Source: Rhodanobacter sp. DHB23
GTDB taxonomy: Bacteria; Pseudomonadota; Gammaproteobacteria; Xanthomonadales; Rhodanobacteraceae
DNA: 64,000 nucleotides
Assembly: GCF_014842975.1 (NCBI RefSeq)
Contig: NZ_JACYXK010000029.1
Coordinates: 1-64,000, forward strand
Direction: 5' to 3'
Positions 3,291 to 41,601 of this stretch are shown piece after piece (positions within the stretch are counted from its first letter, which is position 1; each line of letters begins with the position of its first letter). A program made the translations under genes and the position numbers. The notes below the pieces were generated by a model. The model was not told where the DNA came from and made no database searches. It was given only the letters and a program-made list of their open reading frames with translations.

Positions 3291-4718
<1,428 letters not shown>

Positions 4719-6171: not shown

Positions 6172-6184
6172 AGCAGCACGGTTG

Positions 6185-27299: not shown

Positions 27300-27301
27300 G
27301 T

Positions 27302-28579
27302 TCAATCCTGTTTCATTTCGCCTTCCCCGTTCACCGGGGAAGCGTTGGAGGTGTCGTTGCGCGACTGCCGCGCCACCACGCTGGTCACGGTGAGGTCGGC
27401 GGTGACGTTGCCCAGCGTGGCGAACACGTCGGGCAGCGCGTCCACCGCCAGCATCAGGCCCAGCGGCGCCACCGGCACGCCCATCGCCTGCGCCACCGGC
27501 AGGTTGGTCGCCATGAAAGTGACCTGGCCGGGCAGACCCACCGACCCCAGGCTGATCACCACCGCCAGCGCCGCGCCTGCCACGAGCTGCGCCGGCCCCA
27601 GGTGGATGCCGCTGGCCCAGGCGATGAAGCAGGCCGAGGCGATGTACTGCACCGGACTGGTGAGCCGGCACAGCGACACCGCCATCGGCAACGCCAGCGC
27701 GGTGACCTGGGTCGGGTAGCCGAGCCGACGTTCCGCGCTCTCCAGCATCGCCGGCAACGAGGCCAGCGAGGACTGCGTGCTGGCTGCCACCGCCTGTGCC
27801 GGCGCCAGCGCGACGACGAAACGCCGCAACCGTTCGCCACCCCACAACACCGCCACCGGCAGCATCAACACGGTGACTGTGAGATGCAGGACGATCTCCA
27901 GCAGCACGAACACGCCCAGCGCGCGCACCATGCCCAAGCCGACGCGCGCGCAGACGGCGAGGATCAGTGCGAACACGCCCAACGGCGCCAGCCACAGCAC
28001 CCAGCGCACGATCGCGATCATCGCGTCGGCCATGGCCTGGAAGAACTCCACCAACAGGGCGCGCCGCGCCGGCTGCAACTGCGTGAGCGCGAAGCCGAGG
28101 AACAGCGCGAACACCACCAGCGGCAGCATCGCGCTCTGCGCCGCGGCCATCAGCGCGTTGCTGGGCACGATGCCCTCGAACCAGTCGGCCCAACCCGGCG
28201 CGGCGGCCACCGGTGCATTGGCGGCGTGGCCGCTGAGCACTTCGCCCAAGGCCGGGTTGTGCGGGAACAGCGCCAGCAGCGGCGGTGCGAGCAGCGCGGC
28301 GACCGCCGCGCCGAGCGCGAGCACCACGATGATGGCGACGAGAGTGCGCCGCGCAATGCGCCCGGAAGCCGCCGCATCGCTGGCCGTGTTCACGCCCACC
28401 ACCACCAGTGCCAGCACCAGCGGCACCACCGTCATCTGCAAGGCGTTCAACCACAGGTGGCCGATCGGCTGGGCAACATCCGCCGCCCGCACGGCCCAGC
28501 CCGGAGCCCAGGTGGCAAGCACCAGACCGGCCAGCGCGCCGGCCGCGAGGCCCAGCAACACACGGGTGGTGGCGCTCAT
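27302..28579 (-). CDS. dicarboxylate/amino acid:cation symporter (SLC1/DAACS family)
   Basis: A 425-aa membrane protein with the glutamate-transporter-like fold. Visible features are the N-terminal helices ending HLWLNALQMTVVPLVLALVV, the serine-rich reentrant loop AASTQSSLASLPAMLES, the SLGSVGLPGQVTF reentrant loop and LMLAVDALPDVFATLGNVTA with the substrate-contacting Asp/Asn helix. Sodium- or proton-coupled uptake of an acidic or small amino acid is predicted. Its start overlaps the L,D-transpeptidase stop (ATGA) and it is followed by the D-amino-acid dehydrogenase, so it may bring in the D- or L-amino acid released from cell-wall peptides. Confidence 0.88.
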   Translation of the reverse strand: MSATTRVLLGLAAGALAGLVLATWAPGWAVRAADVAQPIGHLWLNALQMTVVPLVLALVVVGVNTASDAAASGRIARRTLVAIIVVLALGAAVAALLAPPLLALFPHNPALGEVLSGHAANAPVAAAPGWADWFEGIVPSNALMAAAQSAMLPLVVFALFLGFALTQLQPARRALLVEFFQAMADAMIAIVRWVLWLAPLGVFALILAVCARVGLGMVRALGVFVLLEIVLHLTVTVLMLPVAVLWGGERLRRFVVALAPAQAVAASTQSSLASLPAMLESAERRLGYPTQVTALALPMAVSLCRLTSPVQYIASACFIAWASGIHLGPAQLVAGAALAVVISLGSVGLPGQVTFMATNLPVAQAMGVPVAPLGLMLAVDALPDVFATLGNVTADLTVTSVVARQSRNDTSNASPVNGEGEMKQD

Positions 28580-29346
28580 TGGCCCGCCCCCACGCCGGGC
28601 AGCTGCCACGTGTGGCGCAGGCGCGCGTATTCGTCCTGCGGCAGCAACACGAACACCGGGTGCTCCTGCGGCTTCAGCCACGCCAGCAGGCGCTGCATGG
28701 TGCCGGGCGTCATCGCGGTGCAGCCGGTGGTGCCCGTGGTGGGCGACGACCACAGGTGCGCGAAGATGCAGCTGCCGCCGTGCGCCACGCCGTCCGGGTT
28801 GTGCTCGATCACGAAGCCGATGCGGTAGGCCTGGTCTCCATGGAAATGCAGGTCGCGCCGCATCGGCTCGCTGGAACCCTTGAGCGCCGCTTCGCCGACT
28901 TTCGCCGTATCGGCAATGCGGTTGTAGAGCGGCGTGCCGCTGACGTCCATGCAGTAGTCGGTGGCGCTGAGCGCGAGGTACGGCATCGCCGTGTCGGTGT
29001 ACGCCGCGTAGCCGAAGGTAGTGCCGATGCGGAACACACCCGCCGGGCTGCGGCCATCGCCTTCGTGCTTCTGCGGGCCGTCACTTTCCCGCGGGCTGAG
29101 GCCGAGACCCCAAGCCGAACCGCTCTGGCCGATCACCACTGGCTGCGCCTTGCCCACTTCGTGCCACGCGCCACCGTGGTCACGCTGGTAGGTGCGCAGC
29201 GTGCCCTCGATGGTGTTCCAGTCAGGCACGGTGACCAGCACCATCTGCCCGGCGTTGGACCAGGCGGCGGTCGGATCATTCGCGGCGACGGCGTTGCCCG
29301 CGAGGGCCAGTCCGGCGATCAGCAAGGGGATGAAGGGATTACGCAT
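28576..29346 (-). CDS. L,D-transpeptidase (YkuD-type) family protein, secreted
   Basis: A 256-aa protein with a signal peptide (FIPLLIAGLALAGNAVAA) and a catalytic domain ending in the YkuD-like motif, H197 in IFAHLWSS and C209 in TTGTTGCTAM. The family forms or remodels peptidoglycan crosslinks or attaches proteins to diaminopimelate. GDGRSPAGVFRIG is the usual strand before the active site. It is first gene of the symporter/D-amino-acid dehydrogenase unit, sharing ATGA with the symporter. The ATG at 29346 is chosen because upstream codons read through a repeat. Confidence 0.82.
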   Translation of the reverse strand: MRNPFIPLLIAGLALAGNAVAANDPTAAWSNAGQMVLVTVPDWNTIEGTLRTYQRDHGGAWHEVGKAQPVVIGQSGSAWGLGLSPRESDGPQKHEGDGRSPAGVFRIGTTFGYAAYTDTAMPYLALSATDYCMDVSGTPLYNRIADTAKVGEAALKGSSEPMRRDLHFHGDQAYRIGFVIEHNPDGVAHGGSCIFAHLWSSPTTGTTGCTAMTPGTMQRLLAWLKPQEHPVFVLLPQDEYARLRHTWQLPGVGAGQ

Positions 29347-29369
29347 GACAGCGATGACTCCAACGAAAA

Positions 29370-29408
29370 GCCCCTCTCCCCAACCCCTCTCCCGCTTGCG
29401 GGAGAGGG
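29370..29408. repeat. CCCTCTCCC / GGGAGAGGG palindrome
   Basis: One full hairpin, CCCTCTCCCGCTTGCGGGAG followed by AGGG (29385-29408), plus an upstream half-site, lies in the 101-bp gap between the RpiR regulator and the L,D-transpeptidase. It could attenuate read-through between the two units. Confidence 0.8.
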
Positions 29409-29447
29409 AACAAGAACCGAGGCACGGGTAGACGTCCGGACGTCCAT

Positions 29448-30305
29448 TCACGACTCCAGCACCTGCTGGATGCGTTCCAGGTTGGCAACGAGCTGCGCGT
29501 GGCGCGCGTCGTCGCCCTCGCACAGCTGCACGAACAAAACATCCAGCAGGTGCTGCAACGCGGACTGGTAAAGCAGCGATTGGATGTACGGCCGTTCGTC
29601 GTGCGCCGATACCAGCAGGGCCACGTCAGCCAGCGCGCGCAGCGGGTTCGCGTTGTGCCGGGTCACGCTGACCAGCAGGCCGCGGCGCTCGCGGAAATGC
29701 CGGCCGATCTTGCACAGCGCCGGCTGGTTGCCGTGTTCGGAGAACACCAGCAGCACGTCGCCGGGGCCGGCGGCGGAGACATTGGCGGTCATCCGCGCGA
29801 GGTCGAAGTTGTGCACCACGGGCAGACCGAGCAGCGCGAGCTTGTAGGCGAAGGCGCGTGCATGGATGTCGTCCTCGCCGAGGCCGATGAGGAACAGCTT
29901 GCCGCCGCGAGCTGCCTTGGCCATGGCCTTGACCACCGCGGCCAGCGTCTGTGGCGGATTGATGAGTCGCGTGGCCTCCTCCGCCTCGGACTTGCGCCGC
30001 CACAGGCTGGTAGCCAACGACTCGCCAACCTCGCCACGGACCTGAGCGGCGGTTTCCACCTCGTCGCCATTGTCGGCACGGGCGATCGCCTCGCCCACCG
30101 AATACTTGAGGTCGGGATAGCCCTTGAAGCCCAGCTTCTGGGTGAACTTCACCACGCTCGACTGGCTGATGCCCAGCGCGTTGGCGAGCTGCTGCGAGGA
30201 GTAGTCGCGCAGCAGCTGCGCATTGTCCAGCACGAAATCGGCGATGCGGCGTTCCACCGCCGACATCCGGTCGCGCTCGGAGCGGATCTTGACCAGCGGC
30301 GACAT
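29448..30305 (-). CDS. RpiR/MurR-family transcriptional regulator
   Basis: A 285-aa regulator with an N-terminal HTH_6 domain (ERRIADFVLDNAQLLRDYSS, then QQLANALGISQSSVVKFTQK as the DNA-reading helices) and a C-terminal SIS sugar-phosphate-binding domain (LFLIGLGEDDIHARAFAYKL, DVLLVFSEHGNQPALCKIG). Members sense phosphosugars; MurR senses MurNAc-6-P. It lies 1 bp after the dipeptide epimerase gene and probably controls the surrounding peptidoglycan-peptide genes; the ligand is inferred only. A palindrome at 33633-33647 is a candidate operator. Confidence 0.88.
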   Translation of the reverse strand: MSPLVKIRSERDRMSAVERRIADFVLDNAQLLRDYSSQQLANALGISQSSVVKFTQKLGFKGYPDLKYSVGEAIARADNGDEVETAAQVRGEVGESLATSLWRRKSEAEEATRLINPPQTLAAVVKAMAKAARGGKLFLIGLGEDDIHARAFAYKLALLGLPVVHNFDLARMTANVSAAGPGDVLLVFSEHGNQPALCKIGRHFRERRGLLVSVTRHNANPLRALADVALLVSAHDERPYIQSLLYQSALQHLLDVLFVQLCEGDDARHAQLVANLERIQQVLES

Positions 30306-30306
30306 G

Positions 30307-31407
30307 TCAGCCCCCGGCGCCGGTTTCCAGCCCGCGGATCTCGCGGATGCCCAGGCCCGGCGCATCGGTCACCGAGATCTCGGACTCGTTGAAGATCACG
30401 CCGCCGTCCACCGGATTGAACTGGCACAGCGAGGGTCCGTCCAGGTCCACCTTGGTGATCGCGTTGGACTTCGCCACCGCCACGTGCACCGCCGCCGCCA
30501 CGCTGATCGAGGTTTCCAGCATGCAGCCGATCATGCACTCCACGCCGTGCAGCGCGGCGATGTCCGCGATCTTGATCGCGTTGGAGATGCCGCCGGTCTT
30601 CATCAGCTTGATGTTGATGATGTCGGCGGCGCGCAGGCGGATCAGGTCGATCACTTCCATCGGCCCGAACACGCTTTCATCGGCCATGATCGGCGTATGC
30701 ACGCGCTCGGTGACGTAGCGCATGCCCTCAAGGTCGCGCGCCTTCACCGGCTGCTCGACCAGCTCCAGCTTGATGCCGGCATCCTCCAGCGTCTGCAGCG
30801 CGTAGACCGCCTGCTTGGCGGTCCAGCCCTGGTTGGCATCCAGTCGCAGCAGCGCGCGGCCTTCGACTGCCGCGTAGATCGCCTTGACGCGCTCGATGTC
30901 GACGCCGATGTCCTTGCCCACCTTGATCTTCAGCGACTCGAAGCCGCGCTCCACCGCGGCGACGGAATCGGCCACCATCTTGTCGATGTAGTCCACGCTG
31001 ATGGTGATGTCGGTGGTGATCACCGGGTCGCCGCCGCCCAGCAGCTTGTACAACGGTGCCCCGTAGAGCTGGCCCCACAGGTCGTACAGCGCGATCTCCA
31101 CTGCCGCCTTGGCGCTGGTGTTCTTCTCCATCGCCGACTGCACCAGGTGGGTCAGCCGGTTGAGCTCGGCCACGTCCTGGCTGAGCAGGCGCGGCGTGAT
31201 GTAGTGGCGGATCGCGTCGGTGATCGAACCGTGGGTGTCGCCGGTGATCACCGCGGTGGCCGGCGCTTCGCCGTAGCCGACGTGGCCGGTGTCGGTGTGC
31301 ACCATCACCACGATGTCCTCGACCTGGTTGACGGTGCGCAGCGCGGTCTTGAACGGTGTCTTCAGCGGGACGCGCAGCATGCCGAACTGGATGTCGGTGA
31401 TTTTCAT
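30307..31407 (-). CDS. dgcA: dipeptide epimerase (L-Ala-D/L-Glu type), enolase superfamily
   Basis: A 366-aa muconate-lactonizing-subgroup enzyme. The catalytic lysine pair is visible: KIKVGKD (KxK) and NIKLMKTGG. Metal ligands lie in LRLDANQGW, LVEQPV and MADESVFG, and the VDLDGP DxD motif is the one that binds the amino group in L-Ala-D/L-Glu epimerases. It would convert L-Ala-D-Glu from cell-wall peptide to L-Ala-L-Glu for cytosolic peptidases. No signal peptide. It is followed by the RpiR regulator and preceded, across the 590-bp palindrome, by the NlpC/P60 gene. Other dipeptides are possible substrates. Confidence 0.88.
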   Translation of the reverse strand: MKITDIQFGMLRVPLKTPFKTALRTVNQVEDIVVMVHTDTGHVGYGEAPATAVITGDTHGSITDAIRHYITPRLLSQDVAELNRLTHLVQSAMEKNTSAKAAVEIALYDLWGQLYGAPLYKLLGGGDPVITTDITISVDYIDKMVADSVAAVERGFESLKIKVGKDIGVDIERVKAIYAAVEGRALLRLDANQGWTAKQAVYALQTLEDAGIKLELVEQPVKARDLEGMRYVTERVHTPIMADESVFGPMEVIDLIRLRAADIINIKLMKTGGISNAIKIADIAALHGVECMIGCMLETSISVAAAVHVAVAKSNAITKVDLDGPSLCQFNPVDGGVIFNESEISVTDAPGLGIREIRGLETGAGG

Positions 31408-31470
31408 GGGATGGCTTTCATCCTTGGTGGGTGCGTTTTGTATTCGTGTGCGCGTGTCGCGTAGACAGAG

Positions 31471-32057
31471 CGGTTTCGAGCGCCTGTCGGCGCCCGAGTC
31501 ACTTTTCTCTGCGTGGCCAGAGAAAAGTAACCAAAAGAGAGGCCACCCCGATGGCGCGCCCTTCGGGCATCCTGCCCTGCGGGTGCGCGGGCGGGTTCCG
31601 GGGTTTTCCGACGGCACATCCATGTACCGGCGGAAAACTGGCCGGCTTCCTGCCGGCCATCCTGCGGACTTTTCCTCCCCCCGCCCGCCGCGCCATAGGG
31701 GCCCCGGGTAAAGCAGCGCGCTCCCAGCGCGCACTTTTCAAAAGAGCCAAAGCACCGCAAGTTTGCGGCGCTTTGGCTTTGGCTTTTGCTTCTGGCGCGC
31801 ACGATGCGCGCCTGCTTTTCCGGGGCCCCTGGGCGGCGGTGAGGCGGGGACGACAAGGCCGCGCAGCGGGCGAGTCCAAGGATGGACTCGCCTTTTCGAC
31901 CGGACAGGAGTCCGGCCGAAAAGCCCGGCCACGCCTCACGGACTTGCCGGGCAGGACGCCCGGCAAGCGCCAACCGGGGTGGCCTTTCTCTTTGGTTACT
32001 TTCTCTTTGGCCACGCAAAGAGAAAGTAACTCGGGCGCCGACAGGCGACCGAAACCG
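31471..32057. repeat. giant nested palindrome (~590 bp) with ~80-bp terminal inverted repeats
   Basis: The left end (31471-31550) and right end (31975-32057) are near-perfect inverted copies, sharing CGCCTGTCGGCGCCCGAGT and GCGTGGCCA. A second inverted pair lies inside (31694-31735 with 31794-31840), and the centre folds as GCCAAAGCACCGCAA / GCGGCGCTTTGGC near 31746. Several short perfect hairpins lie between, e.g. CTTGCCGGGC / CGCCCGGCAAG at 31943-31967. Open frames across it in several phases look like products of the palindrome, not genes. Nothing else is seen between 31408 and 32161 apart from a GAGAGGG repeat at 32089. Confidence 0.85.
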
Positions 32058-32088
32058 CTTTGAACCTTGCGATGGCACAGCAAAAGCG

Positions 32089-32136
32089 CCCTCTCCCCCA
32101 ACCTCTCTCCCGCCAGCAGGCAAGGGGAGAAACAGA
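32089..32136. repeat. degenerate CCCTCTCCC repeat
   Basis: GCCCTCTCCCCCAACCTCTC followed by TCCCGCCAGCAGGCAAGGGG matches the GAGAGGG family with a decayed right arm. It lies between the giant palindrome and the stop of the NlpC/P60 gene. Confidence 0.65.
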
Positions 32137-32161
32137 GCCCGCGATTGGACGCGCAAACAAT

Positions 32162-33571
32162 TCATCGGCGGATGCGCACGATGCTGGTCATGTGGTCGAT
32201 AAAGGTGGAACCGTCCTTGCCATAAAGCATGGGCAGCAGCGGCGTCACCGACACCGCGTTGAGGTCGACGTGCGCGACGGAGCCGTCCGGCTTGAGGTAG
32301 CTCATGCCCAGCACGTCGTGGATCACCCACGGCTGTCCCTGCCACTGGCCCAGCACCATCATCACGTGGCCGGGGATGTAGACCAAGTCGCCGAGTTGCA
32401 GCTGCATCGCCGCCTGCAGGCGCACCGCGTGGCTGTCGGCGTCGGTGAACAAACGATGTTCCAGTGCGGGACTCTTGGCCTGGTCGCCGGTGTTGCGCGG
32501 CATCTGCACACCGAGGCTGCGGTACACGTCGGAGACAAAACCCGAGCAGTCGCGGCCGTCGTACGAATGGCCCCAACCGTAGCGCTCGCCGAGGAACTTG
32601 AATGCCTGGGTGATCAGGTTGCGCGGCGTCAGCGGCAGGTAGTCGGCGGCAGTGTCGGTGTTCTTCTGCAGCAGCGCGGGCACCAGCGCCATGCTGCCGT
32701 CAGCCTTGCGGATGGGCAACTGCAACGTGTACGCGGCATACGGCGTCTGGCCGTTCACCGGCTGGTCGGGCGGCAACGTGGCAAGCAGCGGCACGCGCGT
32801 GCCCATGTCCAGTTGCAGTTGCGACACCTCTGGCTGTTCGGGCGTGAACACGGTGCGCACGCTGGCGCCGGTGACGATGCGGTACGGCGTCTTCGCGGCG
32901 TAAGCCAGCACCACGTCCTTCGCGCCTTCCGCCACGTACTGCTTCTGCATCCATGCCGCGTAACGCGGACTCACCACGAACAGCCACTGGCCGTCGCGGC
33001 TCGCATGCACGATCACCACCGGCGTACCGGGGAATTCGGCACTCTCCTGGAAACGGTCGATGTCGTGGTCGTCGTCGCTGCTGAACACGCGCAGCGTGGT
33101 GGGAAAGGTGCGCAGCGCGGCGCGCTCCACCACCAAGCCGTAACGCACCGTGGTCTGCGCGGGGATGGTGTCCAGCGCCATATCGTTTTCGATCTTGTCC
33201 AGCGCAGTCGTCGGCACCGGCTGGCCGCGCTCGTCGTACAGCGCGTGCGTGGGCCGCTTCGACAGGTGTTCGATCCATGCGGCCACCTGCGCACGCGGCA
33301 GCGTGGCGGGCAATGCCGCGAGGTCGTGCATGGTGGGATCGAGCTTGAACAGCTTCGCGTTCTGCGCGTCGATCTCCGCGCGGGTAAAGATGTTCCGGTC
33401 GGGTTGCGATTGCAGGCCGATCCAGAACGCCGGCGTGAGTTGCGCATCGCCCACGCCGAGCACGCCGCTGGGCGGGATCGGCAAGCTGCTCGCGGGCACG
33501 CCGCGCGCCGGCAACGGCACGCTGGTCACCGCGAGGGCAAGAACCAAGGCTGCAAGAACCGGACGCTTCAT
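32162..33571 (-). CDS. NlpC/P60 endopeptidase with SH3-like domains (YkfC-like)
   Basis: A 469-aa exported protein: signal peptide 1-24, a long N-terminal region including two SH3-like segments (about 135-300), then the NlpC/P60 domain with catalytic Cys342 in YDGRDCSGFV, His402 in PGHVMMV and third polar residue His418 in WVIHDV. SH3-NlpC/P60 proteins such as Bacillus YkfC cut gamma-D-Glu-diaminopimelate bonds in free stem peptides. It is the first leftward gene of the cluster, and its promoter shares the AT-rich divergent region at 33572-33738 with the transglutaminase-like gene. ATG 33571 gives MKRPVLAALV, a proper signal peptide start. Confidence 0.87.
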   Translation of the reverse strand: MKRPVLAALVLALAVTSVPLPARGVPASSLPIPPSGVLGVGDAQLTPAFWIGLQSQPDRNIFTRAEIDAQNAKLFKLDPTMHDLAALPATLPRAQVAAWIEHLSKRPTHALYDERGQPVPTTALDKIENDMALDTIPAQTTVRYGLVVERAALRTFPTTLRVFSSDDDHDIDRFQESAEFPGTPVVIVHASRDGQWLFVVSPRYAAWMQKQYVAEGAKDVVLAYAAKTPYRIVTGASVRTVFTPEQPEVSQLQLDMGTRVPLLATLPPDQPVNGQTPYAAYTLQLPIRKADGSMALVPALLQKNTDTAADYLPLTPRNLITQAFKFLGERYGWGHSYDGRDCSGFVSDVYRSLGVQMPRNTGDQAKSPALEHRLFTDADSHAVRLQAAMQLQLGDLVYIPGHVMMVLGQWQGQPWVIHDVLGMSYLKPDGSVAHVDLNAVSVTPLLPMLYGKDGSTFIDHMTSIVRIRR

Positions 33572-33632
33572 CGTTTCACCCCTTCGCCTGCGCATCGCCG
33601 GGAGCGGCGGCACGGCGATGCCATGACACCAA

Positions 33633-33647
33633 GGAATATTTGATTCC
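33633..33647. promoter_or_regulatory. palindrome GGAAT-N5-ATTCC in the divergent promoter region
   Basis: The 167-bp gap between the divergent NlpC/P60 and transglutaminase-like genes is strikingly AT-rich for this genome. It holds the 15-bp palindrome GGAATATTTGATTCC, a rightward TTGACC (33675-33680) spaced 17 bp from TACACA (33698-33703), and a leftward TTGATG near 33661. The position suits an operator for both arms, with the RpiR-type regulator as the first candidate. Confidence 0.5.
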
Positions 33648-33738
33648 AATAACTTTCATCAACAGCATAAATTATTGACCACCATTTGCAAGCGTGCTAC
33701 ACAACCCGTTGGGGAAGCATCGCGGGGAGCTCTTTCAA

Positions 33739-35217
33739 ATGGCGAATGTGGCAAGCACTCCACGCCGGGCAACGCGCCTGCTGCTCGCACTGGCCTTGCT
33801 GGCCGCACCATGCGCGATGGCCTGGGCCGCGGACACGCCAACCAGCATCGCCGCCCTGGTCGACGCCGGCCAGTTCCAGGCCGCCGACGCCGACATCACG
33901 CAGGCACTGAACCAGCCCGGGCTGGACGCCATCACGCGCGACGCGCTGCTGTTCCAGCGCGAACGCATGCGCCGCATCCGCTACGACTTTTCGCTCGATG
34001 CCGACGCGCTGAAGGCGCGCATCCGCAAGCAGGTGCCCGACCTGCGCGACGACGAATTCCGCGACTGGGACGAGCACGGCCTGCTCGAACGCATGGTGAT
34101 CGACGGCCGCGTGATGTACTTCAAGCGCGACGCCTCCAACATCTTCCGCCTCAGCGCCGGGGCCGCCGCGCGCCGCGCCCATCCCGCGCCGTTCGACGAC
34201 GACCCGATGGGCGTGCTGAACGACTACCACCGCGAAGTGCGCACCGCATCGCTGCAGGAAAGCCGTAGCAGCGTGCTGCCGCACCGCGTGCGCATCACCC
34301 AGACGCTCACCGTGGATGCCGACGCAGTGCCGGCCGGCAAGACCGTGCGCGCGTGGATTCCCTACCCCAAGGCACTGCCGGGCCAGCAGGACGACATCCG
34401 CTACGTGAGCAGCGTGCCAACAAAGCACGCCATCGCGCCCGATGCCGCGCCGATGCGCACGGTGTACTTCGAAAAGGCCGCGCAGGCCGGCAAGCCCACC
34501 ATCTTCTCGGTCACCTACGAAGTCACGCTGTCCGCGCAATACCACGCGATCGATCCGGCCAAGCTGGTGCCCGCGACGATCACGCCGGAACTTGCACCCT
34601 ATGTCGCGGAGCGCGCTCCGCACCTGGTGTTCACCGAGCAGCTGCGCCTGTTCTCGCGGCAGGTGGTGGGCGACGAGAAGAATCCCTACCGCATCGCGCA
34701 GAAGCTGTTCGCCGCGGTGGACGAGATCCCGTGGGCCGGCGCGCGCGAGTACTCCACCATCCCCGACCTCAGCGACTACACCTTGCACGCGGGCCACGGC
34801 GACTGCGGCCAGCAGACCATGCTGCTGATCGCCCTGCTGCGCCTGAACGGCATACCGGCGCGCTGGCAGTCCGGCGCGATCTTCGCCGACGGCGGTTACA
34901 ACGACATCCACGACTGGGGCCAGCTCTACCTCGCGCCCTACGGCTGGGTGCCGATGGACGTCACCTTCGGCCGCCTGCATCCGGGCGCGCAAGCCAAGCC
35001 CGGCGACGACGCGCTGGAGTGGTTCTACCTCGGTGGGCTGGATGCCTGGCGCGTCGCCTTCAACAGCGACTTCGGCCAGAGCTTCACGCCGGCCAAGCAG
35101 TCGTTCCGCTCCGACAACGTGGATTCGCAGCGCGGCGAAGTCGAGTGGAGCGGCGGCAACCTCTACTACGACCAGTGGAACTACGGCTTCGACTGGTCGC
35201 CGGTCGATCGGCATTGA
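33739..35217 (+). CDS. transglutaminase-like (cysteine protease fold) protein, secreted
   Basis: A 492-aa protein with a signal peptide (LLLALALLAAPCAMAWA) and a C-terminal transglutaminase-core domain. The catalytic triad is C356 in HAGHGDCGQQT, H391 in IHDWGQLYL and D407 in PMDVTFG. The middle part has an Ig-like/strand-rich segment (VRITQTLTVDADAVPAGKTV). Such bacterial proteins are usually peptidases or amidases, not crosslinkers. First rightward gene of the cluster, 19 bp before the decarboxylase gene. A GGGGAG lies 8-9 nt before ATG 33739. A cell-wall or peptide substrate is inferred from neighbours. Confidence 0.8.
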   Translation: MANVASTPRRATRLLLALALLAAPCAMAWAADTPTSIAALVDAGQFQAADADITQALNQPGLDAITRDALLFQRERMRRIRYDFSLDADALKARIRKQVPDLRDDEFRDWDEHGLLERMVIDGRVMYFKRDASNIFRLSAGAAARRAHPAPFDDDPMGVLNDYHREVRTASLQESRSSVLPHRVRITQTLTVDADAVPAGKTVRAWIPYPKALPGQQDDIRYVSSVPTKHAIAPDAAPMRTVYFEKAAQAGKPTIFSVTYEVTLSAQYHAIDPAKLVPATITPELAPYVAERAPHLVFTEQLRLFSRQVVGDEKNPYRIAQKLFAAVDEIPWAGAREYSTIPDLSDYTLHAGHGDCGQQTMLLIALLRLNGIPARWQSGAIFADGGYNDIHDWGQLYLAPYGWVPMDVTFGRLHPGAQAKPGDDALEWFYLGGLDAWRVAFNSDFGQSFTPAKQSFRSDNVDSQRGEVEWSGGNLYYDQWNYGFDWSPVDRH

Positions 35218-35236
35218 CCCCTTCATAGACTCCGCA

Positions 35237-36505
35237 ATGAACCCACTCACCCTGGACACCCTGCCCTCCACGCATTTCGACGGCGTGGACCTTGTCACGC
35301 TCGCCGAACGACTCGGCACGCCACTTTACGCCTACTCGGCCAACGCGATCCGCCAGCGCATCAGTGGCCTGCAGGCGGCGCTGCACGGCATGGATGCGAT
35401 GATCTGCTATGCGGTCAAGGCGAACAGCAACCGCGCCATCCTCGAACTGATGGCACAGGCGGGACTGGGTGCGGACATCGTGTCCGCCGGCGAACTGCAG
35501 CGCGCGCTGCATGCCGGCATCCCGCCCGAACGCATCGTGTTCTCCGGGGTGGGCAAGAACGACGACGAGATCGCCGAGGCGCTGGCCGCCGGCATCCAGC
35601 GCTTCAACGTGGAATCGCTGGACGAGCTGCATGCCATCGAGCGCATCGCCGGCGAACACGGCGCGATGGCACGCGCAGCGGTGCGCATCAACCCCGACGT
35701 CGACGCGCTCACCCACGCCAAGATCTCCACCGGCAAGTCGGAAAACAAGTTCGGCGTGGGCATTGCCGAGGCACGCCGCTGGTTCGACGCGCGCGCCACG
35801 CTGAAGCATGTGCAGCTCGACGGCCTGCACGTCCACATCGGCTCGCAGATCCTGTCGCTGGAACCGTATCGCCAGGCCCTGCAGCGCGTGGCCGCGTTCT
35901 GGCGCGAACTGCGTGACGCCGGCCATCCCGTCGCCAGCATCGACGTGGGCGGCGGCCTCGGCGTGCGCTACCGCGATGGCGACGTGCCGATTGCGCCAGC
36001 GGATTACGTCGCGGTGATCCGCGAAGCACTCGCCGGCTTCGAGGGCCGCTTGCTGCTGGAACCCGGCCGCTACCTGGTGGCCGAGGCCGGCGTGCTGCTG
36101 ACGCGCGTGTTGCGCATCAAGCACGGCGAGGCGCGCGATTTCCTGGTGCTGGATGCGGCGATGAACGATCTCGCCCGCCCCAGCCTGTACGACGCCTGGC
36201 ACGACATCGTGCCGGTGTCCGACGAGGCGCGACCGCAAGCGGTGTACGACATCGTCGGCCCGGTCTGCGAGACCGGCGACACCTTCGCGCAGGCGCGCGA
36301 GCTGCCCGCCTGCGCGGCGGGTGACCTGGTGATGATCCGCGGCACCGGCGCCTATGGCGCCTCGATGGCCTCCACCTACAACTCGCGGCCGCTGGCCGCC
36401 GAAGTGCTGCTCGACCGCGGCCGCCATGCGCTGATCCGCCGGCGGCAGACACTGGATGAAATGCTCGCTGGCGAACAGTCCGCCAGCCAGTGGGAGACGA
36501 CATGA
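35237..36505 (+). CDS. lysA: diaminopimelate decarboxylase-like PLP enzyme (fold type III)
   Basis: A 422-aa alanine-racemase-fold decarboxylase. The PLP lysine is K61 in ICYAVKANSN; other signatures are GLGADIVSAGEL, VHIGSQILSLEPY, SIDVGGGLGVRY, LEPGRYLVAEAG, and the cross-subunit Cys344 in VGPVCETGDTFA, as in LysA. It would turn meso-diaminopimelate into L-lysine. Placed here it fits processing of diaminopimelate released from wall peptides, but it could equally be the main biosynthetic lysA. ATG 35237; its stop overlaps the next start (ATGA). Confidence 0.9.
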   Translation: MNPLTLDTLPSTHFDGVDLVTLAERLGTPLYAYSANAIRQRISGLQAALHGMDAMICYAVKANSNRAILELMAQAGLGADIVSAGELQRALHAGIPPERIVFSGVGKNDDEIAEALAAGIQRFNVESLDELHAIERIAGEHGAMARAAVRINPDVDALTHAKISTGKSENKFGVGIAEARRWFDARATLKHVQLDGLHVHIGSQILSLEPYRQALQRVAAFWRELRDAGHPVASIDVGGGLGVRYRDGDVPIAPADYVAVIREALAGFEGRLLLEPGRYLVAEAGVLLTRVLRIKHGEARDFLVLDAAMNDLARPSLYDAWHDIVPVSDEARPQAVYDIVGPVCETGDTFAQARELPACAAGDLVMIRGTGAYGASMASTYNSRPLAAEVLLDRGRHALIRRRQTLDEMLAGEQSASQWETT

Positions 36506-38166
36506 AGCACATTGCGCGCACGAAGCCTCCTCTCCCCCCAGGGGAGAGGGTTGGGGTGATGGGCCAACCTCGCCGCCATCCCGCATGGCCGCGCAAGGCA
36601 CTCCTAGCTCTCGCATTCGCGCTGCCCTGCACAGTCACCCTCGCTGCGCAGACCACACCTGTCGCCACAACACCCGAAGCTCGCACCTACGACCACATCC
36701 TCGACACCGTGGTCGCGCGCTACCACCTGCCGGGCATCGCGCTCGGCGTGATCGAGAACGGCAAGGTGGTCTACGTCGCCACCCGCGGCGAGACCGTCGC
36801 CGGCTCGGGGCAGAAGATCACCCCGCGCACGCTGTTCGAGATCGCCTCCAACAGCAAGGCGATGACCACCGCCCTGCTCGGCCGGCTGGTCGACCAGGGC
36901 AAGCTGCACTGGGACGACCCGGTGACGAAGTACCTGCCCGGCTTCCAGATGTACGACCCGTGGGTCACGAAGAACATGCGCGTGGCCGACCTGCTCACGC
37001 ACTCCAGCGGCCTGCCCGAGGGCGGCGGCGACCTGATGCTGTGGCCGGAGCCGAACGGCTACACCCGCGCCGACATCATCCACGGCCTGCGCTACATCAA
37101 GCCCGGCTACAGCTTCCGTTCGAAGTACGAGTACGACAACCTGCTCTACGTGGTGGCCGGCGAGGTCGCCGCCGCCGCGGGCGGCGCGCCCTACGAGACA
37201 TTGATGCATCGCGAGGTGTTCCAGCCGCTGGGTCTTTCGCGCTGCCAGGTCGGCGAGTGGAACCGCGATACCGTGGGCGACGTGGCCGCACCGCACGCGC
37301 GCGAGGACAGCCGCAACATCCCGCGGCAGTCGGACAACCCGGTCATCCCCGCCATCACCTCCGCGCCCGCCGGCGGCATCCGCTGCGACCTCGACGACAT
37401 GCTGGCCTGGGCGCGCAACTGGCTGGTGCCCACGCCGGCTCAATTGCAGTGGCTGTCGGCGGAACAGCGCCACGTGCTGCAATCGCCGCACATGCTGATC
37501 CCCGTCTCCCAACAGCGCCGCGACTGGGACAACAGCCACATCATGGCCTACGGCTACGGCTGGCGCATGACCGACGTGGACGGCACCTGGACGGTGTGGC
37601 ACACCGGCACGCTGGACGGCATGTATTCCGAACTGATGCTGCTGCCCGACCGGAAGGACGGCTTCGTCTTCCTCATCAACGGCGAGGCGGAATCCGCGCG
37701 CACCGTGCTGGGCGAGGCGCTGCTCAAGCACTTCACCAAGCCGGACGACGCGCACGACGTCACCTGGTACGCCGACGCGCAGCAACGCGCCGACGAGCAA
37801 GCCACCCGGCGCGCCGCCGCGCCCGACACCTCGAAGGCCACGCCTGTTGCACCCGCGGCCCTGGCTGCGTGGACGGGGCGCTATCGCGATCCGTGGCTGG
37901 GCGATCTCGTGTTGTGCCCGAGCGGCGAGCGCGTGCATTTCGCCGTCGCCAAGTCGCCACGGCTCAATGGCGACGTGATGCGCCTCGGCAATCGCGACCT
38001 GGTGCATTGGAGCAACCATGGCATGGACCCCGACGCGTGGCTGGACTTCCATCCCGCGCGAGACGGACAGCCCGCTACCTTGACCATGGCCAAGGTCGAC
38101 GCGCTCGGCGACTTCAGTTCCGACTACGAAGACCTGCATTTCGTGCGCACCGGGGATTGCCCATGA
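36502..38166 (+). CDS. serine hydrolase, beta-lactamase/DD-peptidase fold, exported
   Basis: A 554-aa class C beta-lactamase-related protein. Active-site motifs are S116-N-S-K119, Y211-D-N213 and H367-T-G, followed by a C-terminal DUF3471-like beta domain (about 455-555). The signal sequence is unusual: ATG 36502 (ATGA overlap with lysA) gives KPPLPPGERVGVMGQPRRHP before the hydrophobic stretch, and this segment is a translated copy of the GAGAGGG repeat. A start at ATG 36559 (MGQPRRHPAW) would give a normal signal peptide. Possible roles are D-aminopeptidase, esterase or DD-peptidase; true beta-lactamase is less likely. Confidence 0.82.
   Translation: MKHIARTKPPLPPGERVGVMGQPRRHPAWPRKALLALAFALPCTVTLAAQTTPVATTPEARTYDHILDTVVARYHLPGIALGVIENGKVVYVATRGETVAGSGQKITPRTLFEIASNSKAMTTALLGRLVDQGKLHWDDPVTKYLPGFQMYDPWVTKNMRVADLLTHSSGLPEGGGDLMLWPEPNGYTRADIIHGLRYIKPGYSFRSKYEYDNLLYVVAGEVAAAAGGAPYETLMHREVFQPLGLSRCQVGEWNRDTVGDVAAPHAREDSRNIPRQSDNPVIPAITSAPAGGIRCDLDDMLAWARNWLVPTPAQLQWLSAEQRHVLQSPHMLIPVSQQRRDWDNSHIMAYGYGWRMTDVDGTWTVWHTGTLDGMYSELMLLPDRKDGFVFLINGEAESARTVLGEALLKHFTKPDDAHDVTWYADAQQRADEQATRRAAAPDTSKATPVAPAALAAWTGRYRDPWLGDLVLCPSGERVHFAVAKSPRLNGDVMRLGNRDLVHWSNHGMDPDAWLDFHPARDGQPATLTMAKVDALGDFSSDYEDLHFVRTGDCP
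36526..36562. repeat. GAGAGGG palindrome inside the 5' end of a serine hydrolase gene
   Basis: CCTCTCCCCCCAGGGGAGAGG (split as CCTCTCCCC / GGGGAGAGG) followed by GTTGGGGTGA lies between two candidate start codons of the serine hydrolase gene. The repeat is either translated as an N-terminal extension or supplies the purine-rich ribosome site for ATG 36559. Confidence 0.75.
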
Positions 38167-38873
38167 AGCCGCTGCTGCTTGCCGCTCTGCTCGCCCTGCC
38201 GTTCGCGGCGCAAGCCGACGAACCACCGCCACAGCTCTCGCCCGCGAAAACCGCGGCGGAAGCGAACCTGGTGGACATCCGCAGCCTGGTGCCCGACATC
38301 GCCGAGGACATCAAGTACGCCGGCAGCGACAATTTCGTCGGCCGGCCGGTGGATGGTTACCTCGCGCCCAAGTGCCTGCTGCTGCGCCCCGCCGCCGAGG
38401 CGCTGGCGCGGGTCGAACACGAGCTCCGCGCACAGCACTATCGGCTGAGATTGTGGGACTGCTACCGACCCGCTCGCGCGGTGGCCGACTTCGTGCGCTG
38501 GGCACACGACCTGTCCGACCAGCGCACCAAGGCCGCCCACTATCCGGAGCTGGACAAGTCCCAACTGCTGGGCGACTACATCGCCCCCGTCTCCGGCCAC
38601 AGCCGCGGCGCCACCACCGATCTCACCATGGAACGCTGCGACACCAGCGACACGCAGTGCACGCCGCTGGACATGGGCACCGGCTTCGACTGGTTCGGCG
38701 TGCGCGCCCACACCGACGCACCCGGCATCAGCGCGGAACAACACGCCAACCGCCTGCTGCTGCGCACGGCCATGGAGCGCGAAGGCTTCCAGAACTACAC
38801 GCTGGAATGGTGGCACTACACGCTCACGCCCGAGCCCACTCCGCACACGCTGTACGACGTGCCGGTGCAATGA
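38163..38873 (+). CDS. D-alanyl-D-alanine dipeptidase (VanX/DdpX type), exported
   Basis: A 236-aa M15D zinc peptidase with a signal peptide (LLLAALLALPFAAQA). Zinc ligands and catalytic residues are in VSGHSRGATTDLT (H146, D153) and LEWWHYT (E215, H218); R102 in DCYRPARA corresponds to the VanX catalytic arginine. The enzyme splits D-Ala-D-Ala to two D-Ala. Overlap of ATGA with the previous gene indicates one operon. Here it probably frees D-Ala for nutrition, with the D-amino-acid dehydrogenase as consumer; vancomycin resistance is unlikely as no vanHA partners are present. Confidence 0.9.
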   Translation: MKPLLLAALLALPFAAQADEPPPQLSPAKTAAEANLVDIRSLVPDIAEDIKYAGSDNFVGRPVDGYLAPKCLLLRPAAEALARVEHELRAQHYRLRLWDCYRPARAVADFVRWAHDLSDQRTKAAHYPELDKSQLLGDYIAPVSGHSRGATTDLTMERCDTSDTQCTPLDMGTGFDWFGVRAHTDAPGISAEQHANRLLLRTAMEREGFQNYTLEWWHYTLTPEPTPHTLYDVPVQ

Positions 38874-38904
38874 ACGCTACACCCTTGCCACACTTCACAC
38901 GATT

Positions 38905-39017
38905 GAATCCCTCTCCCTCCGGGAGAGGGTACCGACAGGCGGGAGAGGGTTCGGGCGAAGCGCAACGCCCAACTCCGCCCGAACCCTCACCCCACCCCCT
39001 CTCCCGGCGGGAGAGGA
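38905..39017. repeat. compound GAGAGGG repeat cluster
   Basis: Between vanX-like and the second serine hydrolase, CCCTCTCCCTCCGGGAGAGG (from about 38910) and CCCCTCTCCCGGCGGGAGAG (about 38996-39015) are two hairpins. Between them AGGGTTCGGGCG (38946-38957) pairs with CGCCCGAACCCT (about 38976-38987). The whole 173-bp gap folds and contains no gene. Confidence 0.78.
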
Positions 39018-39046
39018 GCTCAAGCTTCAGCGCCCGGAGAACCGCC

Positions 39047-40102
39047 ATGCGCCTCGCCGCCACCCTCGTCGCATCGATGTTCGCCGCCAGCACCGCAAGC
39101 GCCTCCACCGCCGACGCCATCAACCACGCCAACCAGCTGATGCAGCCCTACACCGGCGACGTGCCCGGTGCCGCGCTGCTGGTCATCAAGGACGGCAAGC
39201 CGCTGATCGACCGCGGCTACGGCATGGCAGACCTTGAACGGCACGTCGCCGCCACGTCCGCCACCGATTACCGCCTCGCCTCGGTCACCAAGCAGTTCAC
39301 CGCCGCCGCGATCCTGCTGCTGGCGCAGGACGGCAAGCTCAGGCTCGACGATTCGATCCGCCACTGGCTACCCGTGCTGCCCGCCTTCACCGACCAGGTG
39401 ACGCTGCGCGAACTGCTCAGCCACACCGGCGGCCTGCTCGATTACGAAGACCTGGTGCCGCCCGGCCGTACCGCTCAGCTCAACGACGACGACGTGCTGC
39501 ACATGGTCGCCGCCACCACGCACGGCTACTTCCCGCCCGGTACTTCCTATCGCTACAGCAACACCGGCTACGTGCTGCTCGGCTTGGTGGTGGAAAAGTC
39601 GTCCGGCCAGCACCTGCAGGATTTCCTCGCACAGCGGATCTTCCAACCGCTGCACATGGACCACACCCTGCTCTACGTGCACGACGCCAAGAACGTACCG
39701 AACCGCGCCTATGGCTACAGCGAGACCGACGGCCACTGGCAGCGCACCGACCAGGACCTCACCAGCGCCACGCGCGGCGACGGCGGCATCTATTCGAACA
39801 TCGACGATCTCGCGAAGTGGGATGCCGCGCTCTACGACGACCGCCTGCTCAGCGACACCTCGCGCAAGCTCGCCTTCAGCCCGCACGTGAAAGTCGTTGG
39901 CGAGCCGTACGAAGCCAGCTACGGCTTCGGCTGGCGCATCACCGGCGACACGCTGTGGCATTCCGGCGAGAGCATCGGCTTCCGCAACGTGATCGTGCGC
40001 TGGCCGAAGCAGCACCTCACGGTGATCCTGCTCAGCAACCGCAACGACCCCGAGCCCTACCGCACCGTGCTGGCGATTGCCGAACCGTTCCTGCAACACT
40101 GA
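39047..40102 (+). CDS. serine hydrolase, beta-lactamase family, exported
   Basis: A 351-aa protein with a signal peptide (LAATLVASMFAASTASA). The three family motifs are S79-V-T-K82, Y170-S-N172 and a late HSG in LWHSGESIGF. No C-terminal accessory domain is present, unlike the other copy at 36502. It is likely a periplasmic peptidase or esterase of the AmpH/EstB-like group. CCGGAGA lies 6 nt before the ATG at 39047. It is separated from vanX-like by a repeat cluster, so its expression could differ from the upstream genes. Confidence 0.85.
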   Translation: MRLAATLVASMFAASTASASTADAINHANQLMQPYTGDVPGAALLVIKDGKPLIDRGYGMADLERHVAATSATDYRLASVTKQFTAAAILLLAQDGKLRLDDSIRHWLPVLPAFTDQVTLRELLSHTGGLLDYEDLVPPGRTAQLNDDDVLHMVAATTHGYFPPGTSYRYSNTGYVLLGLVVEKSSGQHLQDFLAQRIFQPLHMDHTLLYVHDAKNVPNRAYGYSETDGHWQRTDQDLTSATRGDGGIYSNIDDLAKWDAALYDDRLLSDTSRKLAFSPHVKVVGEPYEASYGFGWRITGDTLWHSGESIGFRNVIVRWPKQHLTVILLSNRNDPEPYRTVLAIAEPFLQH

Positions 40103-40126
40103 CGCATCCATCGGGACACTGCATCC

Positions 40127-40954
40127 ATGCATGCCTCACACGACACGCCGCGCCGCCGCTTCGCCTTCATCCGCCTTGCCGCGTTGCTGGTCGCGCCCAT
40201 GCTGCTCGCCGCCTGCGCCAGCGCACCGCCGCGCAATCCGCTGGCGACCTGGATGCCGTCGCCGAACTACGACACCCGCCGGCCCGTGCTGATCGTGTTG
40301 CACTTCACCGACGAGCACTCCGCGCAGGAGGCGTTGGATACCCTGCGCACGCGCAACAGCGGCGGCCCGGTAAGCGCGCACTACCTGATCGGCAGCGACG
40401 GCCACATCTACCAGTTGGTGCCCGACCAGTTGCGCGCATGGCAGGCGGGACCGGGACGCTGGGGCACCATCACCGACCTCAACTCCGCCTCCATCGGCAT
40501 CGAGCTGGACAACGACGGCCACTCGCCGTTCGCACAGCCGCAGATCGCCAGCCTGCTGCACCTGCTGGGCGACCTCACCACGCGGTTGCACATCCCGCCC
40601 ACGCAGATCATCGGCCACGAGGACCTCGCGCCCGGGCGCAAGGACGACCCCGGCCCGCTGTTCCCGTGGCAGCAACTCGCCGAAGCCGGCTTCGGTCGCT
40701 GGCCTAGCGGCCCGCTGTGCGACCCGCCGCCCGGCTTCGACCCGTGGATGGCGATGGCCGTGGTCGGCTACGCGCTGGACGACCGCACCGCCGCCGTGCA
40801 GTCCTTCCACCACCACTTCCGCGGCATGGAAGGCGACACGCTGGACGCGCAGGACCTGCGCATCCTCTACAACCTCGCACAGCAGATCGAGCCGACCACG
40901 AACACCTGCACCGCACCGTCATCGCCGGCGCAGGCGCCGGCCGGTCAAGGCTGA
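40127..40954 (+). CDS. N-acetylmuramoyl-L-alanine amidase, AmpD/AmiD-like lipoprotein
   Basis: A 275-aa Amidase_2 (PGRP-fold) enzyme with a lipobox LLAAC (Cys30), so likely anchored in the outer membrane like AmiD. Zinc and catalytic residues are H59 in IVLHFTD, E126 in IGIELDNDG, H164 in IIGHEDLAPGRK and D174 in KDDPG. A C-terminal peptidoglycan-binding-like helical part follows (about 205-260, DPWMAMAVVGYALDD). It would release stem peptides from MurNAc or anhydroMurNAc, feeding the other enzymes of the cluster. Its 3' end overlaps the convergent gene by 10 bp. Confidence 0.9.
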   Translation: MHASHDTPRRRFAFIRLAALLVAPMLLAACASAPPRNPLATWMPSPNYDTRRPVLIVLHFTDEHSAQEALDTLRTRNSGGPVSAHYLIGSDGHIYQLVPDQLRAWQAGPGRWGTITDLNSASIGIELDNDGHSPFAQPQIASLLHLLGDLTTRLHIPPTQIIGHEDLAPGRKDDPGPLFPWQQLAEAGFGRWPSGPLCDPPPGFDPWMAMAVVGYALDDRTAAVQSFHHHFRGMEGDTLDAQDLRILYNLAQQIEPTTNTCTAPSSPAQAPAGQG

Positions 40955-41601
40955 ACCAGCACGCTCGCGGTGTAGCTCTCCACCACCAGACTGAAAGGCT
41001 GGTTGTCCTGCGTGTACAGCAAGGCGCGGTGCTGCAGCACGTGGGATGGAATCGCCAATGGCTGCCTGCTTGCCGGCGGCAAGGTGGCACCGCTATCCCA
41101 GCCTTGCGGCAACGGCGACCACAACAGCTCGGCGGAGAGCGTCTGGCGATGGAAGTGCAGCGGCTGCACCACCTTGCCGAACGGCACGTCGGTGGTGTCG
41201 AGCTGCCGGTTCATCGTCGCCGTCAGTCGCGACGGCACATACCAGTTGTCGGCATCGGAAAGCACAACGTTGCCGCAGGCCAGCTGCACGCGGCGATAGC
41301 GCACCGGCTCATCCGCACCGATGCCGAGCAGCGTGCGCCCATCCGGCGGCAGCGGCTTGTCCGCGCCCTGCACGCGATGCGCCACGATTTTCGCCTGCGT
41401 CGCCAGATGATGCGCGCCGCACCAGTGCTCCAGGGTCAACGTGGCGCTGGGATGGCTCAGCAACTCGGCGTTGAGCGTCTGCAATTCGGCCAGCGCCTGC
41501 GTGCGCGCAAGTGGCGTGTCCGGCCAGCCGTCACGCGCGGAGGCGACTGGCGCGACCACCAGCGCCAACGCAACGCATGCAACAAGGTTCCGCGAACGCA
41601 T
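40945..41601 (-). CDS. exported protein, remotely chorismate-lyase-like
   Basis: A 218-aa protein with a signal peptide (VACVALALVVAPVASA). I do not recognise the family with certainty. The segment RYRRVQLACGNVVLSDADNW followed by YVPSRLTATMNRQL and TTDVPFGKVV resembles the UbiC/UTRA fold pattern (R-x-x-L-x-C, then VP-x-x-L, then TPLG), but export is unusual for a chorismate lyase. It starts 4 bp after the trpE stop, same strand, so it may be co-transcribed with trpE, itself a chorismate-using enzyme. The function should be regarded as unknown. Confidence 0.55.
   Translation of the reverse strand: MRSRNLVACVALALVVAPVASARDGWPDTPLARTQALAELQTLNAELLSHPSATLTLEHWCGAHHLATQAKIVAHRVQGADKPLPPDGRTLLGIGADEPVRYRRVQLACGNVVLSDADNWYVPSRLTATMNRQLDTTDVPFGKVVQPLHFHRQTLSAELLWSPLPQGWDSGATLPPASRQPLAIPSHVLQHRALLYTQDNQPFSLVVESYTASVLVQP

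Follow-up and report, generated by a model that had tools for sequence, protein, structure and literature searches.

A divergent gene cluster of Rhodanobacter and its relatives, predicted to degrade peptidoglycan stem peptides under an RpiR-type regulator

Rhodanobacter sp. DHB23 carries, within a 64,000-nucleotide stretch of DNA (contig NZ_JACYXK010000029.1, positions 1 to 64,000; termed the window), a locus of 12 genes in two divergent arms (26163-40954), all of which encode wall-peptide-type enzymes or partners of such enzymes. We conclude that this locus is very probably a pair of RpiR-controlled operons which would degrade the stem peptides of peptidoglycan. An earlier reading of the letters of this DNA (the original prediction) had proposed wall-peptide breakdown by about a dozen genes in two divergent arms, and every gene it named was found in the window; its span of 28576-40954 was too narrow, as it left outside an SLC1 symporter and an FAD oxidase which belong to the same minus-strand arm. 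Its breakdown reading is supported by what we established computationally beyond gene content and family membership, namely co-conservation, the association of the regulator with an operator-like element, and the co-location of orthologous genes with N-acetylmuramic acid (MurNAc) catabolism in relatives.

The locus is a conserved unit, beyond chance, with its gene order held across many genera. We searched 299 genomes drawn evenly from the order, a sample less biased for co-occurrence than the closest relatives described below, and counted strong orthologues only: E ≤1e-99 for the L-Ala-D/L-Glu dipeptide epimerase (next weaker match, 3e-59), E ≤1e-30 for the NlpC/P60 and transglutaminase-like proteins, and >300 bits for the DUF819 membrane protein found in relatives. 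These limits exclude weaker paralogues (any epimerase-like match in 184/299 genomes, any DUF819 match in 183/299). The epimerase was present in 121 genomes and the NlpC/P60 protein in 124; 120 had both, with the two genes ≤5 kb apart in 118. The transglutaminase-like gene was present in 88/299, of which 84 also had the epimerase, all within 5 kb, and locus-type DUF819 occurred in 50/299, within 5 kb of both epimerase and NlpC/P60 in 50/50. The original prediction had named a lack of co-conservation in relatives as grounds for rejecting it; the epimerase and NlpC/P60 counts show the two genes kept together.

For the closest relatives, we separately took 80 named loci, the top 80 among 582 retrieved with the epimerase as the sole query, which are hence not an unbiased set. 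By tblastn, these loci contained RpiR in 80, NlpC/P60 in 79, the transglutaminase in 77, a YkuD-type protein in 72, the SLC1 symporter in 66, a second diaminopimelate decarboxylase (LysA2) in 52, and the FAD oxidase in 34. Both flanks were full in 67/80, and since the 10-kb flank cuts the other arm, counts of serine hydrolases 1 and 2 (SH1 and SH2), VanX, and the AmiD-type amidase are lower bounds. All 11 gene pairs tested were neighbors wherever both members were present, where neighbors are genes that follow each other among those searched for, so that an intervening unsought gene would stay hidden. Gene order was also kept in 20 extended arms, hand-picked from the 84 transglutaminase–epimerase genomes (none from the window's clade, some overlapping the 80 loci), which contained a TonB-dependent receptor in 20, SH1 in 19, VanX in 18, an M19 dipeptidase in 16, LysA2 and SH2 in 14 each, and the amidase in seven. 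Among our locus handles, L003 is the window's own genome, L097 is the same genome as L050, and L132 repeats the genome of L007.

The regulator gene (29448..30305, minus strand) encodes an RpiR/MurR-family protein with Pfam HTH_6 and SIS domains and lies inside the locus, as originally predicted. Its partner is an operator-promoter element (33633..33703, plus strand), a conserved sequence in the divergent intergenic region upstream of the transglutaminase gene, toward which it reads. The element consists of GGAATATTTGATTCC (33633-33647), ATAAATTATTGACC (33667-33680, including a −35 box TTGACC), and the extended −10 sequence TGCTACACA (33695-33703), with 17 bases between TTGACC and TACACA. This layout was found in 86/88 intergenic regions (84/86 distinct); the commonest 8-mer also occurred in 86/88 regions versus at most 8/88 when each was shuffled once. 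We scanned further loci with a score matrix trained on 85 of the positives (cut-off 35; L001-L003 and L118 left out). The element was present in 90/91 scanned RpiR-carrying loci (89/90 distinct) and in 0/29 loci without RpiR, which comprised 15 with epimerase and NlpC/P60 and 14 stray or partial ones; the single exception, L006, is a cut contig. Six of the RpiR loci were outside the training set, and five of these scored 45–92, while L006, whose contig ends before the site, failed. Two later-scanned loci, L131 and L132, were positive, and L128 (RpiR 30%) scored −5.9. Among 104 epimerase–NlpC/P60 loci, 86 had RpiR and the transglutaminase, three had RpiR only, 15 had neither, and none had the transglutaminase alone. 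The 14-mer core has a single exact copy in the window's genome. We infer from these sequences that RpiR acts at this element, mainly or only on this locus, and it may do so either as a repressor or as an activator. The original prediction had also held that genes not co-regulated in relatives would speak against it, and the co-occurrence of RpiR with the element is consistent with shared control.

The strongest argument for wall peptides as the substrate comes from other families. When 398 genomes across the phylum were scanned, the 11 strong hits comprised eight from this order and three from family f14 (G611, G639, and G421). The f14 islands hold the orthologous epimerase, NlpC/P60, and YkuD genes and, in part, the transglutaminase, VanX, amidase, DUF819, and TonB receptor genes. 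These are accompanied by NamZ, a MurQ-type protein, a BadF-type kinase, an SSF symporter, a class IV aminotransferase (below the cut-offs of D-amino-acid transaminase models), GH3, a D-Glu cyclase, and an FAD/Fe-S oxidase; not every member is in every genome, and several of those in G639 and G421 were recognized by eye only. In one genome of family f8 (G007), ∼23 kb of DNA contains MpaA, a racemase-family gene, alanine racemase, an S66 LD-carboxypeptidase, the epimerase, NlpC/P60, an amidase, and a TonB receptor and then continues with NagA, NamZ, MurQ, a second S66 gene, and a second NamZ; G007 alone among 21 genomes searched had NamZ, and MurQ over its cut-off. Because orthologues in two other families thus adjoin MurNAc-catabolic genes (NamZ, MurQ), the locus is tied to wall catabolism. 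Beside the S66–epimerase–NlpC/P60 run of G007 there are also two small membrane-protein frames (L101, 6231-7426), one with a Gate (nucleoside recognition) domain, which are a possible alternative transporter.

The epimerase and NlpC/P60 proteins are the most constant pair of the locus. The epimerase (30307..31407, minus strand; no signal peptide seen) matched Bacillus YkfB (1jpm) by phmmer over its full length (residues 1-354, E 2.3e-103) and keeps the motifs KIK160, LDANQ189, EQP218, ADES242, KLMK267, and DLDGP321 (DLD321-323), which we take to be the KxK motif, the D/E/D metal ligands, the second Lys, and the DxD motif of YkfB-type enzymes. The epimerases of the nearest named loci, from Rhodanobacter sp. 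7MK24 and DHG33, are 99% identical to it. The NlpC/P60 gene (32162..33571, minus strand) encodes an SH3b1-NlpC/P60 protein (Pfam SH3_6 and NLPC_P60), probably an exported γ-D-glutamyl endopeptidase; export calls here and below come from N-termini judged by eye, with no predictor. According to PMC2954226, the criteria for a γ-D-Glu site are Tyr226, Trp228, Asp237, and Ser239 together with Cys-His(-His). The corresponding Y331, W333, D341, C342, and H402 were invariant in 18 aligned NlpC/P60 sequences, whereas position 343 was Ser in 14 and Thr in four and position 418 was His in 16 and Gln in two (Ser and His in the window). The H402 and H418 equivalences were assigned by position and not via the alignment to the YkfC structure 3h41, which spans residues 311-368 only and leaves the SH3b region (Tyr118 of BcYkfC) outside. 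The 18-sequence alignment and another of 33 sequences, both including the window's protein, were each drawn from >80 available. The residues named in the original prediction were correct (NlpC/P60 C342; epimerase DxD, D321-L-D323; amidase H59/E126/H164/D174), and its equation of the pair with Bacillus YkfB/YkfC held for the epimerase; the NlpC/P60 protein lacks the YkfC-subfamily Asp256. Two side observations concern this pair: in L098 (G160:C7:105558-106639), the epimerase match is broken into two frames, and in the window, the gap between the two genes (31408-32161) holds a 40-nt, 90% inverted repeat (31466-31505/32023-32062) with nested repeats and looks like a noncoding repeat element.

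The minus-strand arm runs from NlpC/P60 and the epimerase through RpiR to YkuD, the SLC1 symporter, and the FAD oxidase. The YkuD-type protein (28576..29346; L,D-transpeptidase fold, signal-peptide-like N terminus, H-x(n)-TTGC motif) is a weak L,D-transpeptidase call in the window, its Pfam YkuD score of 23.1 bits being just under the cut-off of 23.4; a homologue fused to the transglutaminase in L127 exceeds it at 31.3 bits. The SLC1-family (SDF) symporter (27302..28579; Pfam SDF, 253 bits) is the sole transporter gene of the window's copy. The FAD oxidase (26163..27299; Pfam DAO, 168.6 bits; no signal peptide seen) had been read as a D-amino-acid dehydrogenase; this gene is present and can be refined to an accessory FAD-dependent enzyme closest to D-arginine dehydrogenase DauA, its best solved relative (3nyc, residues 6-375, E 5.9e-135). 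DauA has a broad substrate range.

The plus-strand arm consists of the transglutaminase-like protein, LysA2, SH1, VanX, SH2, and the lipoprotein amidase, and the families originally called here (VanX, decarboxylase, two SxxK hydrolases, and transglutaminase fold), like the SLC1 call, all matched. The transglutaminase-core cysteine hydrolase (33739..35217) has a signal-peptide-like N terminus and the residues C356/H391/D407. LysA2 (35237..36505; no signal peptide seen) is above the TIGR01048 cut-off (484.8 versus 297.9 bits). SH1 (36502..38166; Pfam Beta-lactamase, 210.8 bits) combines a beta-lactamase fold carrying SNSK at 116 with DUF3471, and SH2 (39047..40102; 236.8 bits) carries SVTK at 79, YSN, and HSG. 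Between them, the VanX-type M15 D-Ala-D-Ala dipeptidase (38163..38873; signal-peptide-like N terminus) matched Peptidase_M15 (PF01427) at 148 bits against a cut-off of 27 and has SGHSRGATTD and EWWH at 215, presumably the SxHxxGxxxD and ExxH motifs of this type. The N-acetylmuramoyl-L-alanine amidase (40127..40954; Pfam Amidase_2, 112.8 bits; AmiD/AmpD family) has LLAAC at C30 and, further on, the residues H59/E126/H164/D174. In L127 and L139, the amidase is fused to a serine hydrolase, and L127 also has a transglutaminase–YkuD fusion; the fusion genes lie at 4056-6512 and 7576-9699 of L127 and 9934-12438 of L139. The spacer between VanX and SH2 (38874-39046) contains GGGAGAGG-type repeats, and repeats of this kind are frequent in the intergenic spacers of Xanthomonads.

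The window's copy is a reduced form of a longer locus, which corrects the composition given in the original prediction: the breakdown enzymes are borne out, and the set is cut down. In relatives, one arm reads transglutaminase, TonB receptor, LysA2, M19 dipeptidase, SH1, VanX, SH2, and amidase, and the other reads DUF819, NlpC/P60, epimerase, RpiR, YkuD, SLC1, and FAD oxidase. The TonB-dependent receptor was present in 72 of the 80 named loci, DUF819 in 54, and M19 in 48, and all three were absent from the locus in the window, L004, L005, and L131. Among the eight named loci without the receptor, L006, L034, and L067 are cut contigs, and L004, L005, L016 (one flank shortened), L032, and L049 look truly without it. 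Where receptor and transglutaminase genes were both present, they adjoined each other in 71/71 named loci. As the three genes are present in most neighbors on the list of relatives, they were probably lost in the window's lineage rather than never gained.

The substrates, the order of the steps, export, and a foreign or own source of wall are what we infer from these families. The exported enzymes would work outside the inner membrane, where the lipoprotein amidase would detach the stem peptide from MurNAc; D-Ala ends and cross-links may be trimmed or opened by the two serine hydrolases, VanX, the YkuD-type protein, and the transglutaminase-like protein; and the NlpC/P60 protein would cleave the bond between γ-D-Glu and meso-diaminopimelate (mDAP). 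The L-Ala-D-Glu, mDAP, and D-Ala would then move into the cytoplasm, in many relatives probably via the TonB receptor in the outer membrane and DUF819, SLC1, or an APC permease in the inner membrane. In the cytoplasm, the epimerase is predicted to convert L-Ala-D-Glu to L-Ala-L-Glu for ordinary dipeptidases, LysA2 to convert mDAP to lysine, and the DauA-like enzyme to oxidize D-amino acids. The window's genome encodes a LysC-LysA fusion separately, and it also encodes Mpl elsewhere. Because Mpl serves ordinary recycling, the locus appears to be a separate route, and the presence of LysA2 beside the LysC-LysA fusion and Mpl makes it look like an extra catabolic one.

Several results weigh against this assignment. 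Searches of the window's genome gave neither a NamZ match nor a MurQ match above its cut-off; DUF819 was absent at E up to 1e-10, and the TonB receptor paralogues were distant (34% at best). Hence the window's copy has no assigned dipeptide importer, and without NamZ and MurQ its regulator may bind a ligand other than MurNAc 6-phosphate. The regulator scored 86.5 bits, below the 408 of the MurR equivalog model NF012026. Other equivalog-level matches fell short as well: the epimerase reached 250.1/500 bits for NF041118 and 111.9/343 for NF011708, whose names point to other epimerase branches (Thermotoga-type and PRK15129), the amidase reached 95/143 bits, and the serine hydrolases were under the cut-offs of the NCBIfam class C beta-lactamase and D-aminopeptidase models. 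Membership of the NlpC/P60 protein in the YkfC subfamily was rejected on the published Asp256 criterion. Asp at YkfC position 256 is a marker of this subfamily's specificity for a free L-Ala (PMC2954226), and the protein has Asn360 at this position, as Asn was found in 18/18 aligned sequences including the window's; its nearest solved structure is 3m1u (E 5.2e-32), versus E 4.6e-6 for YkfC 3h41. Two later-scanned RpiR loci have weak versions of the element: L127 (f14) scored 22.6 and L186 (genus g63) scored 21.9, values under the cut-off of 35 and still above the RpiR-less loci (best, −9.9). In L107-L110, the transglutaminase occurs without RpiR, epimerase, and NlpC/P60, and the amidase, SH2, VanX, and FAD oxidase are not universal among loci. 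Finally, related genomes are not independent samples, such that the significance of the co-occurrences is overstated.

We also considered where the wall peptides might come from. In genera g54 and g63 of family f2, antibacterial-type wall hydrolase genes beyond the amidase were found at the locus in at least 7/15 of the sampled genomes with a strong epimerase (all 15: L087-L091, L123, and L178-L186, with L091 as G298); L089, L090, L123, L181, L182, and L186 end early, which makes 7/15 a lower bound. In five of the 15 (L087, L088, L183, L184, and L186), one gene combines a VgrG3-like hydrolase domain with peptidoglycan-binding and XVIPCD domains, the last marking effectors of the type IV secretion system (T4SS), and adjoins an LprI-type lysozyme-inhibitor gene; the domains were read in L087 (gene at 4476-6496), and the other four were assigned by similarity to it. 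Since VanX was seen on its far side in four loci, the effector gene lies inside the cluster there. Another gene, whose sole Pfam match is a peptidoglycan-binding domain, was found in L089, L123, L183, L184, and L186. Effector-type genes had no match in the 80 named loci (10-kb flanks) or in the 64-kb window, the remainder of the window's genome not having been searched. The antibacterial-type hydrolase genes hint at foreign wall as food, and the TonB receptors of most relatives suggest an outside source; the window's version, whose cluster encodes no outer-membrane importer, may handle products of periplasmic turnover. We tentatively propose, at somewhat less than even confidence, that the complete form couples killing to feeding: secreted hydrolases would open neighboring cells, the TonB receptor would import wall peptides, these would be cut to L-Ala-D-Glu, mDAP, and D-Ala in the periplasm by enzymes among which the transglutaminase-fold protein would be a cross-link peptidase, DUF819 would be the inner-membrane carrier for L-Ala-D-Glu or a D-Ala product, and the regulator would sense a wall-derived amino-sugar phosphate and turn on the peptide branch, with the Rhodanobacter copy being a cut-down version.

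The alternative that survives best, which we consider possible though unlikely, is that cells recycle products of their own periplasmic wall turnover instead of foreign walls. The amidase, VanX, and NlpC/P60 protein would also cut a cell's own turnover peptides, and the window, L004, L005, and L131 lack both the TonB receptor and DUF819 and thus any outer-membrane uptake in the cluster; L016, L032, and L049 likewise lack the receptor. What disfavors own-wall recycling is that the great majority of named loci do have the receptor, that the Mpl route is separate, that relatives' loci adjoin the exo-muramidase NamZ, MurNAc catabolism, and in some cases antibacterial-type wall hydrolases, and that conversion of mDAP to lysine and oxidation of D-amino acids are catabolic rather than precursor saving. 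It is improbable that the locus has a general role with peptides, whether ordinary or containing D-amino acids, or a role in detoxifying D-amino acids and beta-lactams, with wall peptides being one substrate among many. Such a role would fit the likeness of the FAD oxidase to the broad-range DauA, the sub-cut-off matches of the serine hydrolases to class C beta-lactamase and D-aminopeptidase models, and the SLC1 and APC permeases, which are amino-acid carrier families; it is at odds with the constancy of a YkfB-type epimerase next to an NlpC/P60 protein with a conserved γ-D-Glu site and with neighbors in other families that are specific to MurNAc and murein peptides. That the locus is a mere hotspot of unrelated wall enzymes without functional unity is very hard to credit, for although the AmiD-type amidase, SH2, VanX, and FAD oxidase are optional, the epimerase and NlpC/P60 genes are far apart in L054-type genomes such as G054, and the locus is inserted between trpE and trpG in Rhodanobacter, the neighbor relationships of the 80 loci, the regulator–operator co-occurrence, and the absence of any transglutaminase without RpiR among the epimerase–NlpC/P60 loci all contradict it.

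In the window, the locus splits trpE from trpGDC (trp genes at 23557-26069 and 41606-43081). The trpE and trpG genes also border it in L005, L104, and L105, and in L158 and L162 trpE comes next on the amidase side. The protein encoded at 40945-41601, which has no Pfam match, is conserved in several relatives, where it lies between trpE and either the amidase or SH2. Beside trpE, at 43164-46431, are a histidine kinase and a response regulator resembling proteobacterial dedicated sortase system models, the response regulator above the cut-off and the kinase below it.

The original prediction knew of no described system with this exact composition, and in open-licence papers we found no earlier account of the locus or of its operator, transglutaminase, DUF819, or TonB receptor. 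PMC2954226, on B. cereus YkfC, describes the B. subtilis permease for stem-peptide import as unidentified; DUF819 and the TonB receptor family beside the transglutaminase gene are offered here as candidate stem-peptide importers. The transglutaminase-fold family gains a likely role, and the RpiR operator is predicted to the base. In some relatives, antibacterial-type wall hydrolases share the site of wall-peptide catabolism, which allows a direct test of whether bacteria that kill others also feed on the walls of the cells they kill.

The locus belongs to a known theme, peptidoglycan-peptide catabolism, and it is this composition and element which we did not find described. Among known systems, the Bacillus ykfABC(D) operon encodes YkfA (LD-carboxypeptidase), YkfB (epimerase), and YkfC (NlpC/P60), and the likeness is a YkfB-type epimerase gene adjoining an SH3b-NlpC/P60 gene. 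Our locus differs in the Asn at the Asp256 position and the closeness to 3m1u, in having no YkfA in the window's cluster, and in adding the transglutaminase, LysA2, VanX, serine hydrolases, amidase, YkuD, and RpiR, together with the TonB receptor and DUF819 in many relatives. According to PMC2954226, epimerase–NlpC/P60 pairs are already known from several phyla, and B. cereus YkfC is exported, with peptides proposed to be cut outside and L-Ala-γ-D-Glu imported. The E. coli MpaA-YcjG-PepD pathway shares the cleavage of γ-D-Glu-mDAP followed by epimerization of L-Ala-D-Glu (PMC2954226). The E. coli enzyme, MpaA, is a metallopeptidase with no relation to NlpC/P60, whereas an exported cysteine endopeptidase is likely here; in the f8 relative G007, the locus also includes an MpaA gene that scores above its cut-off. 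NamZ-MurK-MurQ is a MurNAc scavenging pathway; in the f14 and f8 relatives, the peptide genes are accompanied by NamZ- and MurQ-family genes and one for a BadF-type kinase, while the window's genome holds the peptide branch only. The XVIPCD hydrolase and LprI-type inhibitor genes of the five g54/g63 loci resemble the X-Tfe effector-immunity pairs of the Xanthomonad T4SS; these g54/g63 genes had no match in the named loci or the window. Xanthomonad TonB-dependent utilization loci serve plant carbohydrates or N-acetylglucosamine and likewise combine a TonB receptor, periplasmic hydrolases, an inner-membrane permease, cytoplasmic enzymes, and a local regulator; here the substrate would be wall peptides, and the window's copy lacks the receptor.

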